A stretch of 64,000 nucleotides of DNA from NCBI RefSeq assembly GCF_007785775.2, contig NZ_VNIK02000001.1, forward strand, positions 186,001 through 250,000. Reading direction: 5' to 3'. The notes beneath the pieces were generated by a model. The model saw only the letters and a program-made list of their open reading frames with translations. It made no database searches and was not told where the DNA came from. The position numbers and the translations under genes are program-made. Below are positions 3,200-56,215 of this stretch, one piece after another (position 1 is the first letter of the stretch; each line of letters starts with the position of its first letter). This DNA is from Flagellimonas hadalis. GTDB lineage: Bacteria > Bacteroidota > Bacteroidia > Flavobacteriales > Flavobacteriaceae.

Positions 3200-4819
3200 T
3201 TATTGATTCAAAAATTCTTCGATGTTTGTGTAGCCGTCTTTATCGAAATCTCCATTGTAATCTTGTGACAAGTCTCCAAATTCACGTATTTCCCAAGCAT
3301 CAGCCATGCCATCATTGTCAGTGTCATAGGAATCAGGTCTTATTATGGAAGGAATTGATGGCAATTGCCAATCATTTATGTTCCCTGTCCTTTTCATGGT
3401 GTTGCTCTTTATATCATTTATTCCATCTTCATCAAGAGGGTCCATATAATATTTAATTCTTCCTTCATCATCCATATAGTGACAAGCACCAACATTTCCT
3501 TGATTTATCAGGCTTTCAAAAGCGTCGTAAGCAGATAGGCCCGTATCTGAATTGGGAATGCCGTTATGTGGTGATGCTACCAACAAATCCCTGTCAATTG
3601 GTGTGTCATTGCCCACACCTCCTAACCTGTAGGTCCAAATGGGTGCATTACTGTCTTTGCCCACCTCGGAACCATTCAGTACAAAACCATTTTTATTTTC
3701 ATAGACATTTCCTTGGGTATAAAGTCTTAGTTCTGTATATGGGGACCCTTTTGAATTGTATTTCCCATCCGACCTTTGAAATTCATTGGTTTCTGTAGTT
3801 CCTGATGGTAATCTGTAATAATTGTCACTCCAGTTAATGTATGCATTGTCTGACCATTGGATGACACCAAATTTAGTCCCAGTGGTTTGTATAACGTTAT
3901 TTTTTACTTCTACATAACCTCCTGTCCCTCCTATGTTTGGAGTTCTATTTGAGCCTCTCATAAAAACATTGAGAATACATGATATGTAATCTCTTTTATT
4001 GAAATTAGCAGGGTTTTGCATTGACATCTGCATGTATGTATGGGAATTGGACACAATACTTCTTTGAACAGTATGCCCCATTTGGCTGACATCTTGATTT
4101 GTTCCTACAAGTATGGCTTTGTCGCCACCCCAAGAAGCTGTAACATGGTCTAAGATAATATTGTTACCTCCATTAACCTTGAAGCCATATGTGCTCTGGT
4201 CATCAGATATCTCGCCCGATGAATCATAGGAACCCGTAGACCCATTTCTGGAACGGATATATCTCATTATAATGTTGTTCACACCATTGAACTGAATATT
4301 ATCCCCATGGATAGTGATACCACCTCTAGGTGCAGATTGGCCAAAGACTGTTATATCATCTCTTGAAATTGTTAGGTCGGAACCAGAAATGTCAATATTT
4401 CCAGATACATTGAATACTATATATCTCGGGCCAATATTTTGTGATAAGGCAGCCCTTATACCCCCACTATATGTGTTTGAAGACGAGTCATATACCAAAG
4501 GAGCTCTACTGTCCAAAGTGTTTACCATGACCAATACCCCACCACGACCGCCAGTTGCATTGGATCCACCTCCATATGCCCCAGGAAAAGCTTTTAGGGT
4601 ATTGTCATCTAAATCTGGATTTGTGGTTCCAGAATCATCGTCATCTGAACCATCATTATCTGGATTATCGGTACCACCATCGATATCATCATCAGTATTG
4701 TCGGCAATGTCATCATTAATAATATCAGTAAACAAGTCATTGTCTTTGGCACAAGACGAATTGAGAATGATAAAAAGTGAGAAAAAGATTATCCGGACCA
4801 AGGGCAAAACATTTTTCAT
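3200..4819 (-). CDS. Pectate lyase-like (PL1) surface lipoprotein
   Basis: A 539-aa lipoprotein with a parallel beta-helix domain of polysaccharide lyase family 1. The signal peptide ends in NSSC (Cys at about residue 22), which fixes the start at 4819 rather than 28 codons upstream. A very acidic Asp/Asn linker follows. The catalytic domain opens with FPGAYGGGSNATGGRGG; it has LDHVTASW, resembling the IDH signature of pectate lyases, and NRTPNIGG, resembling the RxPxxR region. The C-terminus has two Asp-rich calcium loops, DTDNDGMAD and DFDKDGYTN. PL1 enzymes cleave alpha-1,4-galacturonate by beta-elimination. Its place in a locus that makes UDP-galacturonate suggests action on the cell's own polymer (inference). 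Confidence 0.8.
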   Translation of the reverse strand: MKNVLPLVRIIFFSLFIILNSSCAKDNDLFTDIINDDIADNTDDDIDGGTDNPDNDGSDDDDSGTTNPDLDDNTLKAFPGAYGGGSNATGGRGGVLVMVNTLDSRAPLVYDSSSNTYSGGIRAALSQNIGPRYIVFNVSGNIDISGSDLTISRDDITVFGQSAPRGGITIHGDNIQFNGVNNIIMRYIRSRNGSTGSYDSSGEISDDQSTYGFKVNGGNNIILDHVTASWGGDKAILVGTNQDVSQMGHTVQRSIVSNSHTYMQMSMQNPANFNKRDYISCILNVFMRGSNRTPNIGGTGGYVEVKNNVIQTTGTKFGVIQWSDNAYINWSDNYYRLPSGTTETNEFQRSDGKYNSKGSPYTELRLYTQGNVYENKNGFVLNGSEVGKDSNAPIWTYRLGGVGNDTPIDRDLLVASPHNGIPNSDTGLSAYDAFESLINQGNVGACHYMDDEGRIKYYMDPLDEDGINDIKSNTMKRTGNINDWQLPSIPSIIRPDSYDTDNDGMADAWEIREFGDLSQDYNGDFDKDGYTNIEEFLNQ

Positions 4820-5344
4820 GGGGTATCTGATTTGGAAGCTAAAATTATTCAATAAATGTTTGTACTCGTTTAAAAGCAATTTTTTTTCGATGAAATGCAT
4901 CAATTTAATTAGTTGAAAAGTTAAATTTTGTATCTGCGTCTAGATTTATAACGGCTAATTACGCACTTGGTCGATAAAATGGATTACTTGGACGATTTTT
5001 TTAACATAAAAGGGATGATAAATCGATGAAATACCATTTTCTTTAACATCCATACCATCCTGTCTGTCTGTCTGTTGAGAAAAAGTCGATTGTTTTTAGG
5101 CCTCCTTTTTAAAGTCGGATAAGGGGTATTGTTATTGGGCATGGCATTCAGCGTACACTTTACCTTTAGAATAAAACTTAGACCAATAAGTTTTACCGTT
5201 GTACGATTTTTTTTTGATAATGCCACTGTTATGATGTTCTTTGCACAAGTCTTTAAAAATGGTTTTATAGGGTTCAATACACCACCCATGAATAGTTTTG
5301 AAAGATTATATATTATTATAACACTCAACCATGAACTTTAAAAG
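4820..5344. other. Divergent intergenic region, no gene seen
   Basis: This 525-bp AT-rich stretch separates the divergent lyase and nucleotide-sugar dehydrogenase genes. Open frames in it translate to Lys/Asn/Phe-rich strings without a recognisable motif, so none is called. It contains a short (CTGT)4 microsatellite at 5060-5075 and a candidate -7 element at 5293-5300. It presumably holds promoters for both flanking genes. Confidence 0.6.
5293..5300 (+). promoter_or_regulatory. Candidate Bacteroidota -7 box for tviB-like gene
   Basis: TAGTTTTG matches the Bacteroidota -7 consensus TAnnTTTG. Transcription would start near 5306, giving a leader of about 39 nt before the ATG at 5345. The -33 region is poor (GTTC 17 nt upstream), so the call is tentative. 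Confidence 0.35.
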
Positions 5345-11775: not shown

Positions 11776-12843
11776 ATGAAGGAAATAACAATAGTACACC
11801 TGATCACAGGTTTGGGTGGAGGTGGTGCGGAACAAATGGTACTGAAGTTGGGTGTTGAAGCCAAGAAACATAATGCAAAGACCTTGGTTATTCCCATAAG
11901 TGACATCAACACCATTGAATCAAAGTTTAAGGATGCCAAACTGGAATACCACTTTTTAAGCATATCATCTTTTTCAAAAATAAGAAAAGGGCTTATAAGA
12001 CTTAAGGATATTTTGAAAGAAGAGAAAAATCCGGTATTACATTGCCATATGTTCCATGCACTTGTAATCGGAATTTTGTTCAAATTGTTCTTCAGGAGCG
12101 TCCCTATTGTATTCACACTTCACAATACAAACGTCAACCATGCCTATAGGGCATATATATTGGGTGTTTCCAAAGGTTTACGTAAGGCGGATATATTGTT
12201 TTCCAAAAGTGGTACACAGTGGTTTTTAAAGAACTCAATAATTATTCCCAATGGGCTGGACATTTCAAACTTTGAAGTTGCTGCAAATGTGAGAAGTGCC
12301 GATTTGACCAACAAACCTTTTCATTTTTTGTTCTTGGGTAGCCTTACCGAGCAGAAAAATCCATTTATATTGCCAAAACTGGCTAATTTTTTAAGGTCTA
12401 AGGGGCTGGAAAACTTTAAAATAGATGTTTTAGGGGATGGTCCTATGCGAGAGCAACTTCAGGAAAAGATAAAAACGGAGGGGCAATCTGATAAAATCAT
12501 TTTACATGGGTTTTCCAATAAGGTTGTTGAATATTTGAAATCTTCTCATTGTTTGATCATGCCATCCCATTGGGAAGGTATGCCTGTTGTGATATTGGAG
12601 GCCGGGGCTGCCAGACTTCCCATTGTTTGTACTCCAGTGGGTTCCATTCCTGACATCGTTTCGGAAGAGAATGGATATGTGGTCGAAATGGAACAGTTTC
12701 CTGAAGCCATGGCGAGTGTAATGGAAGATTATGTTCATGCGCTAGAGAAGAGTGATGCATTCTATGAGCATGTTGTTGGAAATTATTCCATCCAAGAAGT
12801 CTTTAATCGACATCTTGAATTGTATAGGTCAGTATCCAAATAG
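11776..12843 (+). CDS. Family 4 glycosyltransferase
   Basis: A 355-aa GT4 enzyme with the loop GLGGGGAEQMV near residues 13-23 and the C-terminal donor-site region HWEGMPVVILEAGAARLPIV near residue 265. Its start is separated by a single base from the preceding glycosyltransferase, so the two are almost certainly co-translated and may add consecutive sugars (inference). The next gene is convergent, ending 12 bp away. Confidence 0.86.
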   Translation: MKEITIVHLITGLGGGGAEQMVLKLGVEAKKHNAKTLVIPISDINTIESKFKDAKLEYHFLSISSFSKIRKGLIRLKDILKEEKNPVLHCHMFHALVIGILFKLFFRSVPIVFTLHNTNVNHAYRAYILGVSKGLRKADILFSKSGTQWFLKNSIIIPNGLDISNFEVAANVRSADLTNKPFHFLFLGSLTEQKNPFILPKLANFLRSKGLENFKIDVLGDGPMREQLQEKIKTEGQSDKIILHGFSNKVVEYLKSSHCLIMPSHWEGMPVVILEAGAARLPIVCTPVGSIPDIVSEENGYVVEMEQFPEAMASVMEDYVHALEKSDAFYEHVVGNYSIQEVFNRHLELYRSVSK

Positions 12844-12855
12844 GAAGCGGAGACA

Positions 12856-14520
12856 CTATTTTCTCCTTTTTACCAGAGCATCAATAACGGTTAGTTTACC
12901 GGTTTGGTTGATGGTATGTGTTGAAACCAGATCTTTTTCCCAATTTGGATAAATGGATTGCAGATTGATTTCCTGATAATCCTCCTTGGTAAGTACTTTT
13001 ATCATCTGAAGCTGCATACCATGGCCATAATGCTTTGCGCAATTTTGTGACGGTCTTATCAAATGCCCGTTATATTCAAAAATCTTACCGGCAGGTCTAG
13101 AAGAACTTACATCAGAAACAATGGGGTTCTTGGGGTGGGGAGTCCAATTATTGGTCACGAGATTGTCCGCGTAAAACAAAAATAATTCATTGGAAGTGGA
13201 TGAACCTTCGTTTTCTTTGATGTTGCAAAAAAGCCAGTAGGTATTTTCATGGGATATTATTGTGGTATCCACCGCTTGTACATCCTTCATTAACACCTTT
13301 TCCAAGCTCCATTTTAAAGGGAGCTGATCACATTTATACAATTCAATCTGTTTGTTCTCTGCTGTTTCAGGAATCATATAAAGGTTGCCATTGTCCTCTA
13401 TTAAAAAAGGATAGGACAAATGGTAATCCTTTTCCAAAACAATTTTTGGTTCAGAATAATTGCCTTTTTCATCCAATTCCAAAACGGAAATATTGCCCAA
13501 CCCATTTTTGTAGATCAATTCCTCAAAAAAAACATAATATTTTCCGTCCTTTTCAAAAATGAAGGGGTCTGCCCAGAAACGGTCCTTAGGGGGAACAATT
13601 CTTTTAAATCTGAAAAAAGATTTTGACAGTTGCTCCTTCTTTTCGAAGCTGTACATCAAGATCCATTGGTTGAAAAAGAAAATCCTTTTTACCCACCCTT
13701 TGAAAACACCGGTATAGATTTTAAGTAGCGCCTTAAGAGCTTCGCCATTTGTCGGAGCAACGAACAAACGGTTGTAATATATCTGCGGTTTGGCATTGTC
13801 CCGTAGCACTTCATCCATGAATACCGTACCACCTTTTTTGTGGAGCTCCGCCAGTTTTCTGGTAATTAATGAAGTGGCACTCCAATAATAGTTGTTTTTG
13901 TTACGGTTGATACTAACGGAGTCGGTAGAGGCTCGGGTTTTTGCCAAAGTAAGGCCACCATCAAGATCCTCTGTAAGTATTTGAAGAACAGCTCCGGTAT
14001 TGTGCCATCCTTCATAAACTTCCCAAACGCCAGGAGGGCCACCTCTATTTATATCGTTATCACCATGATGGTAGGACCAAACACCGAATTTAGAGCTTTT
14101 AAGGATTTCTCCTCTCAATATCCTAAAACCGAATCGGATGAAGACATCGATATTGTGTTCACGAATTTTAGAGATGTCTTCTGCACCTATAATATCACTG
14201 AACTTGGTCTCCTTTGGGGAAACTACTATTTCTGGGCACTCAATTAATTCTTTTAGGTCTTTTGCCTGAAAGGCATTTGGACGCGGTTTAAAGAGTTTGT
14301 TTTCCAGTTTGCCGTGCAGAAAGTAAAGAAGACTGTTCCTGACCTTCCACAAGGTTTTTAGTTTACCATCTTTGTTGGTCCCGGCCATACTTTTCTTTCG
14401 AACGATAAGGGCAACTTCAGAATGATCGGATGCCAAGATGTTCTGGACCATTCTGTATTCCCAAAGTGGTATTCTGTAATCGTTTATAAGTATCCCGATC
14501 TTCAGTTTGTTTGCAGCCAT
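12856..14520 (-). CDS. Formyltransferase-like domain fused to beta-propeller domain
   Basis: A 554-aa two-domain protein. Residues 1 to about 200 have the formyl-transferase N-terminal fold: the core from FGVWSYHHGDND to GGPPGVWE aligns without gaps to Fmt encoded at 55250-56215 in this same window. His151 and Asp187 match the Fmt His and Asp, but the catalytic Asn is replaced by Ser149. Residues about 285-545 look like a five-bladed propeller of the GH43-like type (RFWADPFIFEKDGKYYVFFEE, then YPFLIEDNGNLYMIPE), as in the N-terminal domain of glucosamine inositolphosphorylceramide transferases. It follows ugd by 38 bp. N-formylation of the 4-amino-sugar made by the PglF/PglE-like pair is a plausible but unproved role. 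Confidence 0.72.
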   Translation of the reverse strand: MAANKLKIGILINDYRIPLWEYRMVQNILASDHSEVALIVRKKSMAGTNKDGKLKTLWKVRNSLLYFLHGKLENKLFKPRPNAFQAKDLKELIECPEIVVSPKETKFSDIIGAEDISKIREHNIDVFIRFGFRILRGEILKSSKFGVWSYHHGDNDINRGGPPGVWEVYEGWHNTGAVLQILTEDLDGGLTLAKTRASTDSVSINRNKNNYYWSATSLITRKLAELHKKGGTVFMDEVLRDNAKPQIYYNRLFVAPTNGEALKALLKIYTGVFKGWVKRIFFFNQWILMYSFEKKEQLSKSFFRFKRIVPPKDRFWADPFIFEKDGKYYVFFEELIYKNGLGNISVLELDEKGNYSEPKIVLEKDYHLSYPFLIEDNGNLYMIPETAENKQIELYKCDQLPLKWSLEKVLMKDVQAVDTTIISHENTYWLFCNIKENEGSSTSNELFLFYADNLVTNNWTPHPKNPIVSDVSSSRPAGKIFEYNGHLIRPSQNCAKHYGHGMQLQMIKVLTKEDYQEINLQSIYPNWEKDLVSTHTINQTGKLTVIDALVKRRK

Positions 14521-14558: not shown

Positions 14559-15893
14559 TCAATATCTGGTTTTGCCTATTTGATAATATTCAAAACCCAT
14601 TTCTGACAAGATTTCATCATTGTATTGGTTTCTTCCGTCAAAAATTACAGGTTCCAGCAATTGTTTTTTTATTTCGTGGAAATCTGGGGAACGGAATTCT
14701 TTCCATTCGGTAAGAAGGATCATGGCATTTGCCTCTGAAATGGCTTCGTATTTGGAGGAATAATAAGTTACATTTGGCGTGTCTTTCAAGTAAAAATGTT
14801 TGGCTTCCTCTATTGCCTTTGGGTCATACGCTTTTATGATGGCACCTCTTTTGACCAATTCGTTTATGATGTAAATGGACGGAGCTTCCCGCATGTCATC
14901 GGTTTCGGGTTTGAAGGAGAGACCCCAAACGGCAAATACTTTACCGTTCAGGTCGGCTCCATATTTGGCGATTATCTTATGGGCCACTACCAGTTTTTGT
15001 CTATCGTTCACATCTTCAACAGCTTCAATAAGTTGGGGCTGGTATCCATATTGCATGGCCGTTTTTTTCAAGGCTTTTACGTCTTTTGGAAAACAAGAGC
15101 CCCCATATCCGCTCCCGGGATAAATAAAGCTATATCCGATTCTGCTGTCGGATCCAATCCCAATTCTTACTTTGTTCACATCGGCTCCAACTAGTTCACA
15201 AATGTTGGCAACCTCGTTCATAAACGAAATCTTAGTGGCCAACATGGCATTTGCCACGTACTTTGTCATCTCGGCAGACCTGACATCCATGGTAATCAGG
15301 CGGTCCATGCTGCTCCTAAAGAATGGTGCATACAATGAGCGCATTTTTTTTGTCGCTTCCGGATTGTCCGATCCAATTACAACCCTATCGGGTTTCATGA
15401 AATCATTGATGGCATCCCCTTCTTTTAAGAACTCGGGGTTAGAAACTACGGTAAAAGGCATGGATGCGCCACGTTTCTGAAGTTCATTGGCAATGGTCTC
15501 ATGGACTTTATCCGCTGTTCCCACAGGTACAGTGGATTTATCCACAACTATCAACGGGGCGGTCATGTGGGAACCTATTTGTTTGGCAACCTGAAGCACA
15601 TACTGTAGATCGGCTGAACCGTCTTCCCCCATTGGGGTTCCAACTGCAATAAAGGCAATGTCACAATTGTCAAGGTGACTTTGCAAAGAAGTGCTGAAAT
15701 GGAGTGTTTTTCCGGCAACATTACGTTTCACCATGGCTTCTAGACCAGGCTCATAAATTGGGATAATGCCATTTTTCAGACCATCTATTTTTTTTTGGTC
15801 AATATCTATACATGTTACGTTGTTTCCCATTTCGGCGAAGCAGGTCCCGCTAACAAGGCCCACATATCCGGTTCCGATGATAGTCAGATTCAT
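14559..15893 (-). CDS. ugd: UDP-glucose 6-dehydrogenase
   Basis: A 444-aa dehydrogenase that converts UDP-glucose to UDP-glucuronate with two NAD+. The N-terminal Rossmann motif is GTGYVGLVSG (residues 7-16). The catalytic Cys is C267 in GYGGSCFPKD, with the preceding SFIYPG being typical of the Ugd/TuaD group. It is distinct in sequence from the TviB-like dehydrogenase upstream in the locus. It lies in a minus-strand run with the UDP-GlcNAc 4-epimerase, the UDP-glucuronate epimerase and the formyltransferase fusion; with the UDP-glucuronate epimerase it should supply UDP-galacturonate. Confidence 0.92.
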   Translation of the reverse strand: MNLTIIGTGYVGLVSGTCFAEMGNNVTCIDIDQKKIDGLKNGIIPIYEPGLEAMVKRNVAGKTLHFSTSLQSHLDNCDIAFIAVGTPMGEDGSADLQYVLQVAKQIGSHMTAPLIVVDKSTVPVGTADKVHETIANELQKRGASMPFTVVSNPEFLKEGDAINDFMKPDRVVIGSDNPEATKKMRSLYAPFFRSSMDRLITMDVRSAEMTKYVANAMLATKISFMNEVANICELVGADVNKVRIGIGSDSRIGYSFIYPGSGYGGSCFPKDVKALKKTAMQYGYQPQLIEAVEDVNDRQKLVVAHKIIAKYGADLNGKVFAVWGLSFKPETDDMREAPSIYIINELVKRGAIIKAYDPKAIEEAKHFYLKDTPNVTYYSSKYEAISEANAMILLTEWKEFRSPDFHEIKKQLLEPVIFDGRNQYNDEILSEMGFEYYQIGKTRY

Positions 15894-15929: not shown

Positions 15930-16931
15930 TTAGTTTTTTAGATTTTCCCAATACCAATCCACTGCTTTTTCCAATCCTTTGGAAATATCATATGTTGGGG
16001 CATAACCCAGTCTTTCCTTTGCTCTATGGATGGAGGCCAATGAGTGGGGGACATCTCCAAGTCTATTGGGACCATAATTTGGTTCAATTTCAGCAATTTT
16101 TGAATCATATTTTGATAGGTTCTTTTTGAGAAGCCCAATCAATTGATTAAGATCAGTTCTTTCCCCAAAGGCTACATTGTAAACTGTATTTACGGCATCT
16201 GGATTAGTGGTTGTAATTGCCCTTAAATTCATTTCAATAACATTTTCAATGTAGGTGAAGTCCCTGGAAAAGCTTCCATCACCATTGATTGTTGGTGACT
16301 CATGTTTCATCAACTGCATTACAAATTTAGGTATAACGGCCGCATAAGCACCGTTGGGATCTTGTCTTTTTCCGAATACATTAAAATACCTTAGGCCTAT
16401 TGTTTCGATACCATATGTTTTTGAAAAAACATCGGCATAAAGTTCATTAACATACTTTGTTATGGCATATGGCGAGAGAGGTTTTCCTATATTTTCTTCA
16501 ATCTTGGGCATCTGTTTGGAGTCACCGTATGTTGAACTGCTTGCAGCATATATAAAACGTTTTACGTTGGCATTTTTGCTGGCTACAAGCATGTTCAAAA
16601 ATCCTGACACATTGACCATGTTACTGGTGATAGGGTCTTTGATGGACCTGGGAACAGAACCCAATGCTGCTTGGTGCAAAATGAAATCAACGCCATTGCA
16701 AGCGTTTTCACATGTCTCCAGATCTCTTATGTCCCCTTCTATGAGTGTAAAATTCTTATTGTCCAGAAAGGGCTTTATGTTCTCTTTTTTACCTGTGGAA
16801 AAATTGTCCAAACAGGTTACCCTATTTCCATTTGCAAGTAATGTTTCGCAGAGGTTGGAACCAATGAATCCAGCTCCACCCGTGACTAAAATATGAAGTT
16901 CCTTGTTGAGGACAATATCGTTCAGTGCCAT
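15930..16931 (-). CDS. tviC: UDP-N-acetylglucosamine 4-epimerase, TviC/WbpP family
   Basis: A 333-aa extended short-chain dehydrogenase/reductase. The NAD motif is GGAGFIG (residues 18-24), the catalytic YxxxK is in SPYAITKYVNE, and the family segment AALGSVPRSIKDP and SSSTYGD are shared with TviC and WbpP. These enzymes interconvert UDP-GlcNAc/UDP-GalNAc or their uronic acid forms. With the TviB-like enzyme it forms the Vi-type route to UDP-GalNAcA. It starts 132 bp after the UDP-glucuronate epimerase on the same strand and ends 36 bp before ugd. Confidence 0.88.
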   Translation of the reverse strand: MALNDIVLNKELHILVTGGAGFIGSNLCETLLANGNRVTCLDNFSTGKKENIKPFLDNKNFTLIEGDIRDLETCENACNGVDFILHQAALGSVPRSIKDPITSNMVNVSGFLNMLVASKNANVKRFIYAASSSTYGDSKQMPKIEENIGKPLSPYAITKYVNELYADVFSKTYGIETIGLRYFNVFGKRQDPNGAYAAVIPKFVMQLMKHESPTINGDGSFSRDFTYIENVIEMNLRAITTTNPDAVNTVYNVAFGERTDLNQLIGLLKKNLSKYDSKIAEIEPNYGPNRLGDVPHSLASIHRAKERLGYAPTYDISKGLEKAVDWYWENLKN

Positions 16932-17063: not shown

Positions 17064-18092
17064 TTATTGTATTCGATAGTGTTTTTTGTACCAATCCACA
17101 AAGTTGGAAATGCCATTTTCGATAGATGTGTTGGGACTATATCCATAATCCCTTATCAAATCATCCACATTTGCCCATGTTTTTTCGACATCTCCAGGTT
17201 GCATTTCAAGAAACTGTTTTTCTGCAGTTGTGGAGAGTTTATTTTCCAAAGCGGTCACAAAATCTAGAAGTTTTACGGAATTATTGTTACCTATGTTATA
17301 GATGTTATAGTTGCTTCTGGGGGATTCTTGACCTATATATTTGTTTTCGATGATGCGTACAACTCCCTCAACAATATCATCTATATAGGTAAAGTCCCTT
17401 TCCATATTTCCCTTATTGAAAACTTTTATTGGCTTTCCCTCCAAAATGGCCTTTGTGAATAAAAACATTGCCATATCAGGTCTGCCCCAAGGACCATAAA
17501 CTGTAAAAAAACGTAGCCCCGTTGTCTTGAACTTGAACAAATGGCTATAGGTGTGTGCCATCAGCTCGTTACTTTTTTTTGAAGCCGCGTACAGGCTTAT
17601 GGGATGGTCCACATGGTCTGAGGTCTCAAAAGGGACTTTTTTATTGGACCCGTAAACACTTGAACTACTGGCATAAACCAAGTGTTTTATGTTATTGTGG
17701 CGGCAACATTCGAGGACATTCAAAAAGCCAACAATGTTACTATCTATATATGTTTCAGGATTCTCCAAACTATAGCGAACGCCCGCTTGGGCAGCCAAAT
17801 TACAAACAGCATCAAATTTTTCATTGGAAAATAATTGAGGTAGATGATCTCTGTCTTCTAGGTTCATCCGAACAAAGCTGAATTTATCATGGGAGTTACT
17901 CTCAACAATTTGATTGAACTCCTTTGCAGATTCAGTCATGATTCCAAGTTGTTCTAATCTTGAAAACTTTAAGTTTACATCATAATAGTCATTTATGTTA
18001 TCAAGACCAACTACTATATGTTGGTTTTCCAATAACCTTTTACAAACATGGTATCCAATAAATCCAGCGACACCTGTGACAAGAAATTTCAT
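17064..18092 (-). CDS. UDP-glucuronate 4-epimerase
   Basis: A 342-aa extended SDR epimerase. The N-terminus MKFLVTGVAGFIGYHVCKRL, followed by GLDNINDYYD, is the signature of UDP-glucuronate 4-epimerases (LspL/Gla type). The catalytic motif SLYAASKKSNE supplies the YxxxK. It converts UDP-GlcA from Ugd to UDP-GalA in the cytoplasm. It is the first gene of the minus-strand run and faces a 355-bp divergent intergenic region. I saw no clear -7 element for it there. Confidence 0.88.
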   Translation of the reverse strand: MKFLVTGVAGFIGYHVCKRLLENQHIVVGLDNINDYYDVNLKFSRLEQLGIMTESAKEFNQIVESNSHDKFSFVRMNLEDRDHLPQLFSNEKFDAVCNLAAQAGVRYSLENPETYIDSNIVGFLNVLECCRHNNIKHLVYASSSSVYGSNKKVPFETSDHVDHPISLYAASKKSNELMAHTYSHLFKFKTTGLRFFTVYGPWGRPDMAMFLFTKAILEGKPIKVFNKGNMERDFTYIDDIVEGVVRIIENKYIGQESPRSNYNIYNIGNNNSVKLLDFVTALENKLSTTAEKQFLEMQPGDVEKTWANVDDLIRDYGYSPNTSIENGISNFVDWYKKHYRIQ

Positions 18093-55249: not shown

Positions 55250-56215
55250 TTAGCGAAGGTGAGCGCCTTCATCCAGATTCAATCCGTTCAAAACCTCAGT
55301 GACCTTCATCCGGCGCTTTCCGGAAAATTGGAGTTCCATCAGATTTAGATAACCATCCTCAACAGCCACTTTCATGGATTTTTTATCTGCAATCAACTTT
55401 CCAACCATAAGCCCATGTTGTGCGGGTTCCATTTGGGTCGCATAAATTTTGAGGGGTTCTTCCACACCATTATTGATGATAGTGGTCCACGATCCGGGGT
55501 AGGGGCTGAGTCCTCTTATATGGTTATGGATATCTTCTAAAGATGCGTTCCAATCGATTTGGCAGGTTTCCTTATGGATCTTGGGAGCTGGTTTTAGCTC
55601 GCCGCTTTCGCTTTGCTTGCTTACGTTGACAGTTCCGGCCGCAATCTGTTTGCAGGTTTCCACGACCAAATTTCCACCAATTTGCATCAATCGGTCGTGC
55701 AAGCTCCCCGCATTGTCCTCGGGACTGATTTTTTCCTTGGCCTGAAGGATGATGTTCCCGGTATCTATTTTTTCATCGATAAAAAAAGTGGTGACCCCAG
55801 TTTCCGTTTCCCCGTTGATGATGGCCCAGTTGATGGGCGCCGCGCCACGGTATTGGGGCAGGAGCGAGGCATGGAGATTGAACGTGCCGTGTTCCGGCAT
55901 GTGCCAGACCGCTTTGGGCAGCATCCTAAAAGCCACGACCACCTGCAGGTTGGCATTAAGGCCTTTGAGCTCTTCCAAAAAGCCTTCATTTTTTAAATTG
56001 GTGGGCTGCAACACCTTCAATTGGTGCTGTACGGCAAATTCCTTGACAGCGGATTGCTGCACTTTGCGGCCACGTCCAGCGGCCCTGTCCGGTGCAGTGA
56101 CCACGCCGACCACGTTCAGTCCGGCTTCCAAGATGCGTGCAAGGCTGCCCACCGCAAAATCGGGCGTGCCCATGAACACGATGCGTAGGTCCTTATTTTT
56201 TGATACTGTACTCAT
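55250..56215 (-). CDS. fmt: Methionyl-tRNA formyltransferase
   Basis: A 321-aa enzyme that formylates initiator Met-tRNA using 10-formyl-THF. The catalytic triad is intact: Asn113 and His115 in FNLHASLLPQYRG and Asp151 in EKIDTGN. The N-terminus RIVFMGTPDFAVGSL is standard. The ATG at 56215 overlaps the end of recQ by 23 bp. It serves as an in-window reference for the degenerate formyltransferase domain at 12856-14520. Confidence 0.95.
   Translation of the reverse strand: MSTVSKNKDLRIVFMGTPDFAVGSLARILEAGLNVVGVVTAPDRAAGRGRKVQQSAVKEFAVQHQLKVLQPTNLKNEGFLEELKGLNANLQVVVAFRMLPKAVWHMPEHGTFNLHASLLPQYRGAAPINWAIINGETETGVTTFFIDEKIDTGNIILQAKEKISPEDNAGSLHDRLMQIGGNLVVETCKQIAAGTVNVSKQSESGELKPAPKIHKETCQIDWNASLEDIHNHIRGLSPYPGSWTTIINNGVEEPLKIYATQMEPAQHGLMVGKLIADKKSMKVAVEDGYLNLMELQFSGKRRMKVTEVLNGLNLDEGAHLR

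Follow-up and report, generated by a model that had tools for sequence, protein, structure and literature searches.

A Ser-x-His formyltransferase-fold protein fused to a GINT1_N propeller in a polysaccharide gene cluster of Flagellimonas hadalis, and its family

The window analysed here, a 64,000-nucleotide stretch of Flagellimonas hadalis contig NZ_VNIK02000001.1 (positions 186,001 to 250,000), holds a gene cluster of capsule or exopolysaccharide type, with Wzx-type, Wzy_C-type, Wza, Wzc, CpsB/CapC, DegT and glycosyltransferase family 4 (GT4) genes. Among these lies a gene for a 554-residue protein in which a formyltransferase-like domain, carrying serine where asparagine is expected, is fused to a GINT1_N propeller; a single match for its open reading frame (ORF) was found in the source genome at E ≤ 0.001. 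Relatives were collected by scanning one genome per species across 84,980 species; 496 stretches were confirmed and the 80 best loci retained, and the conservation counts below rest on 71 full-length rows among these 80. A canonical Fmt encoded in the same window served as the yardstick for comparison. The features on which the argument depends are as follows.

12856..14520, minus strand: focal coding sequence, 554 aa, Ser-x-His formyltransferase-like domain plus GINT1_N propeller (ORF, Pfam, AlphaFold2)
13750..14520, minus strand: N-terminal formyltransferase-fold domain, about residues 1-257 (AlphaFold2 model, fold match, profile)
14074..14076, minus strand: Ser149 codon, catalytic Asn position (Ser in 71/71 full-length rows; Fmt alignment)
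14068..14070, minus strand: His151 codon, catalytic His position (70/71 rows; 7/7 aligned standalone relatives)
14065..14067, minus strand: His152 codon (71/71 fused rows; H, R, F or P in standalone relatives)
14059..14061, minus strand: Asp154 codon, in the loop replacing SLLP (71/71 fused rows; D or N in standalone relatives)
13960..13962, minus strand: Asp187 codon, catalytic Asp position (70/71 rows; 7/7 aligned standalone relatives)
12859..13677, minus strand: C-terminal five-bladed propeller, about residues 282-554, PF24793 GINT1_N (Pfam, fold, conserved polar residues)
55250..56215, minus strand: canonical Fmt, Asn-x-His (PF00551, E 1e-37)

The likeness of the N-terminal domain to formyltransferases, in both sequence and fold, is beyond chance. 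AlphaFold2 modelled the full-length protein from 71 homologues with a mean predicted local distance difference test (pLDDT) score of 95.3 and a predicted template modelling (pTM) score of 0.92, and residues 1-260 alone with values of 94.1 and 0.90. The best structural match of the latter model was E. coli Fmt (Z 16.6, root-mean-square deviation 3.0 Å, 199 residues aligned), which bears out the fold assignment of the first-pass annotation of this DNA. All 50 structure matches listed were Fmt, FDH hydrolase, ArnA, GART/PurN, WbkC, HypX, formyl-tetrahydrofolate deformylase or FdtF, with the folate complexes 2bln, 4qpd, 5vyu and 6j1f among them, and Foldseek returned a best E of 8.8e-10. Compared with the PDB, a profile built from 57 homologous domains found Fmt at E 1.4e-6, ArnA at about 9e-5 and WbkC at 0.006. 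With a seven-row profile of the same domain, matches at E ≤ 1e-6 came from 290 of the 395 Bacteroidota genomes searched; of those inspected by alignment, five were family members and seven Fmt-like proteins. The Pfam family Formyl_trans_N (PF00551) scored under its cut-off on the focal protein (E 0.19), so that cut-off-based annotation would overlook the domain, and Formyl_trans_C gave no match up to E 1.

Known 10-formyltetrahydrofolate (10-formyl-THF) enzymes are described as using a His and an Asp, with an Asn, replaced by Ile in FDH, close to the formyl group, and as having an HxSLLPxxxG loop motif (PMC4388273). The focal protein has GVWSYHHGDNDINRGGPPGVWE at residues 146-167, with HHGDND at 151-156, and LTEDLDGG at 182-189. 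Its alignment to the Fmt of the window is gap-free across the active site and places Ser149 opposite the Asn of FNLHASLLP; residues, motif and alignment all agree with what had been read from the sequence at first pass. Across the family, the Asn of the Asn-His-Asp triad is absent (Ser149 in 71/71 rows), the His and the Asp are present (70/71 each), and HHGDNxxxRG stands in place of HxSLLPxxxG. Arg159 was kept in all 71 rows, and Glu167 was also near-absolutely conserved. The sole exception at Asp187 was Gly, in locus L105; at His151 it was Arg, in L065 (6728-8392, SYRHGD), where Ser and Asp are kept and the Arg may be either a real variant or an assembly error. Because the Ser was part of one of our two search patterns, its conservation is fairly judged from the loci found by the other pattern, in which Ser149 was present in 46 of 46, a count to be read knowing that retention of the best 80 loci favours likeness to the query. 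The serine region, which the first-pass annotation had proposed to check across homologues, is thus invariant. Near-invariance of Ser149, His151, Asp187, Asp154 and Arg159 over many phyla argues for a working active site.

The same core is found outside the fused proteins. Standalone Ser-x-His...Asp proteins were recovered from Bacteroidota (G178, 258 aa, in locus L150) and from haloarchaeal plasmids, most of them annotated as "formyltransferase family protein" in public records. Ser149, His151 and Asp187 were kept in all seven aligned standalone relatives, and the second His and Asp154 varied, which indicates that the core set is Ser149-His151-Asp187 and that HHGD typifies the fused proteins. 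Ser149 is fixed throughout a large subfamily, fused and standalone, bacterial and archaeal, and is not an oddity of one protein.

Both domains were detected in 79 of the 80 loci, the remaining one (L096) ending at a contig edge, and these loci, the best 80 of the 496 stretches, come from many phyla. The collected loci held 145 formyltransferase-fold ORFs, a sample enriched for the Ser-x-His family: 94 had Ser-His-Asp, 48 Asn-His-Asp and three a partial set. In a tree of 86 rows with the motif columns removed, one branch parted the Ser from the Asn forms (support 96/90, present in 94% of bootstrap trees); the tree used only 80 columns and its inner forks were weak, and support for a single origin of the fused form was low (60/37). 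This single branch, together with the invariant Ser, marks off the Ser-x-His proteins as a subfamily of their own within the formyltransferase superfamily; fusion to a glycan-type propeller is frequent, and the genes are found in polysaccharide clusters. Since both the Asn and the SLLP loop were looked for and neither was found, we have not assigned the protein to the canonical sugar N-formyltransferases. The superfamily is already known; what is new is a Ser-x-His branch marked by a loop of its own and by fusion to a propeller. The two-domain proteins are annotated as hypothetical in the public records inspected, and we recognised no description of the fused family in the open-licence literature searched. 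A scan of viral contigs returned seven pattern stretches and no relative. One record in a phage collection (MT836586.1, 8652-9359, human-faecal, "Bacteriophage sp.") gave a propeller-only match at 30% identity; it ends 255 bases past the match and could be a mislabelled bacterial fragment.

The C-terminal half matches GINT1_N at E 4e-50 (171.1 bits against a cut-off of 27), and its fold resembles glycoside hydrolase (GH) structures of families GH130, GH62 and GH43 (Z 19 to 21.5). The earlier description of a GH43-like propeller related to GINT1 holds for the GINT1 relationship and the likeness of fold; membership of GH43 was rejected, as PF04616 reached 22.1 bits where its cut-off is 32.2, and the fold only is shared. 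The GH43 catalytic triad is Asp/Asp/Glu. The propeller has four invariant acids (D318, E333, E385 and D418), and an attempt to place them by sequence against solved GH43 proteins yielded no alignment. A profile of the full-length family found no glycosidase up to E 0.1, only formyltransferases, and the focal protein alone found one glycosidase, at E 0.59. The polar set of the propeller comprises D318, E333, H367, S369, E385, D418, R475, Q492, Y498 and H535; of these, D318, E333, S369, E385, D418, R475, Q492 and H535 show no variation across the 71 fused rows. The set is identical in P0001 and in 29 propellers beyond the 80-locus set, mostly propeller-only proteins, and its retention suggests that the propeller is probably a working module, not a spacer. 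Many homologues match the focal protein through the propeller alone, and no assigned role for bacterial GINT1_N propellers was found in the literature searched. Propeller-only proteins of GINT1_N type, annotated as hypothetical, also lie near glycosyltransferase genes in Acinetobacter baumannii and Enterobacter plasmid records (L037, 7893-8783; L038, 7986-8924).

In the window, the focal gene is the fourth and last of a co-oriented row that starts with a short-chain dehydrogenase/reductase (SDR) gene, and a glycosyltransferase gene converges on it from the other side.

17064..18092, minus strand: SDR of the nucleoside diphosphate (NDP)-sugar epimerase/dehydratase family, probable first gene of the focal operon
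15930..16931, minus strand: TviC-like NDP-sugar epimerase (its top NCBIfam match falls short of the cut-off), in the same apparent operon
14559..15893, minus strand: UDP-glucose 6-dehydrogenase-type gene, oriented as the focal gene and lying 38 bp upstream of it
11776..12843, plus strand: GT4-type glycosyltransferase, convergent to the focal gene (Pfam scan)

The focal gene is accessory within its genus, found in four of the 35 other genomes searched. Its nearest locus, in Flagellimonas pelagia (L040), shows 91% identity over the N-terminal query, and a UDP-glucose 6-dehydrogenase-type gene adjoins the family gene there too. Elsewhere in the polysaccharide cluster of the window, a 567-aa ORF (3200-4903, minus strand) matched no Pfam family at cut-off (best E 0.26).

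Among 108 flanking proteins scanned, out of 151 immediate neighbours across the loci, 19 matched Glycos_transf_1 (GT4-type) and five Asn_synthase. Polysaccharide deacetylase genes recurred at close quarters. In L150, a deacetylase, the standalone Ser-x-His protein and an AsnB-like gene are consecutive, with ORFs overlapping or abutting; in L180, a deacetylase overlaps the formyltransferase gene by four bases; and in L179, a deacetylase and AsnB are nearby. Within the fused set, a deacetylase adjoins or overlaps the family gene in L060, L109 and L111, the last two being 96% identical and counting as one case. ORFs of more than 1000 aa adjoin the family gene in L050, L051, L076, L099 and L100, the first three of which are near-copies.

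The fold, the homology, the invariance of Ser, His and Asp, the fusion and the glycan gene context form the basis of the explanation we favour, to which we give a probability of roughly one half: a two-module glycan enzyme in which a Ser-x-His formyltransferase, joined to a GH43/GH130-like propeller, N-formylates a sugar amine of a surface glycan with 10-formyl-THF, while the propeller holds or processes the glycan. From this basis we infer the cofactor, acceptor and product and the roles of Ser149 and of the propeller. On this view, 10-formyl-THF would occupy the Rossmann-fold cleft of the N-terminal domain, as is usual for such enzymes, with His151 and Asp187 acting as in Fmt and ArnA. The formyl carbonyl would be held by the Ser149 hydroxyl in place of Asn, perhaps together with His152 and Asp154. 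The attacking group, which would end up N-formylated, would be a primary sugar amine of a surface polysaccharide or of its precursor, and the propeller would bind or process the glycan. In some loci the acceptor amine might be freed by the adjacent polysaccharide deacetylase; deacetylase genes beside some members fit such a deacetylate-then-formylate step, with borderline enrichment. Of the three functional options raised at first pass, a sugar or glycan N-formyltransferase is thus the best supported, and a pure sugar-binding protein fits poorly because the Ser/His/Asp set is invariant.

Several observations weigh against this explanation. The family lacks both the Asn and the SLLP loop that known 10-formyl-THF transferases possess, and by analogy with the FDH hydrolase domain, which has Ile and performs hydrolysis, loss of the Asn may signal a different acceptor. 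Ser-x-His is lost, with the propeller retained, in two of 12 homologues of two-domain length (L007 and L036), and a third (L006) keeps Ser-x-His and the propeller but lacks Asp187; as the propeller persists in all three, its role may be the principal one in some lineages. The neighbourhoods also speak less clearly once compared with 40 Wzc-centred polysaccharide loci, controls that come from the window's class only, several of them sharing a genome, and that were taken down a ranked list with some partial or contig-end matches skipped. A deacetylase was found in the flanks of 8 of 80 focal and 0 of 40 control loci, a borderline difference (p = 0.051). As four groups among the focal loci are near-copies, merging these gave 7/74 at 90% identity (p = 0.094) and 7/70 at 70% identity (p = 0.047). 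Counts for deacetylase and AsnB may be biased upward, since proteins close to family members or propellers served to train the models, and focal counts are biased downward by mean locus length (11.8 kb against 15.8 kb). Gene tables or Pfam scans covered eight standalone loci (L150, L179-L184 and L226), to the exclusion of the unannotated L225; a deacetylase occurred in three and AsnB in two, and the other five had no listed deacetylase within 7 kb, in gene tables that are incomplete. AsnB (16/80 against 5/40, p = 0.45) and DegT aminotransferase (10/80 against 5/40, p = 1.0) did not differ from controls over the whole set, and neither did UDP-glucose dehydrogenase and GT4 genes. We therefore rejected the AsnB neighbourhood as a strong functional link and regard it as suggestive only. 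A nucleotide-4-amino-sugar formyltransferase, a candidate prompted by the DegT aminotransferase and CapD-type dehydratase of the window, was also set aside, as the DegT counts reveal no link to NDP-4-amino-sugar supply across the whole set. In the Bacteroidota subset, AsnB was found in 10/28 loci against 5/40 (p = 0.036, uncorrected); GT4 (20/28 against 16/40, p = 0.014) and, nearly so, DegT (9/28 against 5/40, p = 0.069) differed as well, which indicates that the control was only loosely matched.

These points give some room to a different one-carbon or acyl reaction, in which loss of the Asn marks a change of acceptor and the enzyme hydrolyses a formyl donor or formyl-sugar, or transfers to a hydroxyl or thiol. 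We consider this unlikely, though worth keeping in view. The FDH hydrolase domain, with Ile at the Asn position, is described as passing formyl to a phosphopantetheine arm, and the SLLP loop is here rebuilt as HHGDN. For HypX, a modified His/Asp/Asp set with formyl transfer to coenzyme A (CoA) has been proposed, direct results being not yet available according to its authors (PMC6802093); the proposal illustrates that the active-site set can be rebuilt in a putative formyl-transfer enzyme. The degenerate relative L036 (11689-13290, Rhizobium sp. CCGE532 plasmid), a GINT1_N protein whose formyltransferase-like N-terminus has decayed, lies directly 3' of nonribosomal peptide synthetase/polyketide synthase-type genes and beside phosphopantetheinyl transferase and DegT aminotransferase genes, which counts in favour; this relative, however, itself lacks the Ser-x-His motif. 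The glycan-assembly context, with a deacetylase able to yield free amines directly adjacent in several loci, also tells against such a reaction.

The missing Asn and SLLP loop, and the few homologues in which the N-terminal domain is degraded and the propeller retained, would also suit a catalytically dead domain serving as a sugar- or nucleotide-binding module for the propeller or a glycosyltransferase. We judge this improbable, given near-absolute conservation of Ser149, His151, His152, Asp154, Arg159, Glu167 and Asp187 and the fact that separate standalone proteins keep Ser, His and Asp. We give no more weight to the view that the propeller is the principal enzyme, whether a hydrolase, phosphorylase or transferase of GH43/GH130-like kind that acts on the glycan, and that formylation is an accessory decoration step. 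The polar residues invariant in the 71 rows and in the 29 further propellers favour it, as does the fold likeness to GH130, GH62 and GH43, but the near-absence of glycosidases from both sequence searches, the GH43 score below cut-off and catalytic residues that could not be placed by sequence count against it.

If the favoured N-formylation of surface glycans holds, the family of 496 confirmed stretches would be a route for N-formyl or related groups into surface polysaccharides, the textbook Asn of folate formyl transfer would prove replaceable by Ser in a stable lineage, and bacterial GINT1_N propellers would gain a concrete partner activity to test. A bolder version, which we put forward only tentatively and think doubtful as a whole, is that the Ser-x-His branch formylates surface glycans directly (or makes another one-carbon transfer to them), not nucleotide sugars, after the action of a deacetylase and coupled to a polymer-engaging GH-like propeller, and so would constitute an unrecognised polysaccharide-editing module of bacteria and haloarchaea.

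Among known systems, Fmt, ArnA, WbkC and FdtF resemble the focal protein in fold (Z 12.9 to 16.6), in the His151 and Asp187 positions and in the Arg-Gly that follows the loop, and for Fmt the active-site alignment is gap-free; the focal protein differs from all four in Ser for Asn, HHGDN for HxSLLP, the lack of a Formyl_trans_C match and the propeller fusion. The FDH hydrolase domain (Z 15.3 to 15.8) and HypX (Z 12.9 to 13.6) are also alike in fold, and FDH shares the loss of Asn, having Ile104 at that position and hydrolysis as its reaction, but it keeps HxSLLPxxxG (PMC4388273). The acceptors of FDH and HypX are water or thiols, and their partner domains are others. Standalone haloarchaeal proteins annotated "formyltransferase family protein" (most of 276-290 aa, with a single annotation of 176 aa) share Ser-x-His...Asp and a YRG loop with the focal protein; they differ in having no propeller in the annotated coding sequence and a variable second His and Asp154, and the records inspected assign them no function. 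Also in a haloarchaeon, Halorubrum sp. PV6, HrrPV6_1050 has been put forward as a possible N-formyltransferase for 5-N-formyl-legionaminic acid (PMC6137143), and a Ser-x-His motif in it would tie the family to a known N-formyl sugar. GINT1_N is named for the N-terminal domain of plant glucosamine inositolphosphorylceramide transferase 1, with which the focal protein has the propeller in common. Plant GINT1-type proteins carry a GT64 domain, whereas the partner of the propeller in the focal protein is formyltransferase-like.
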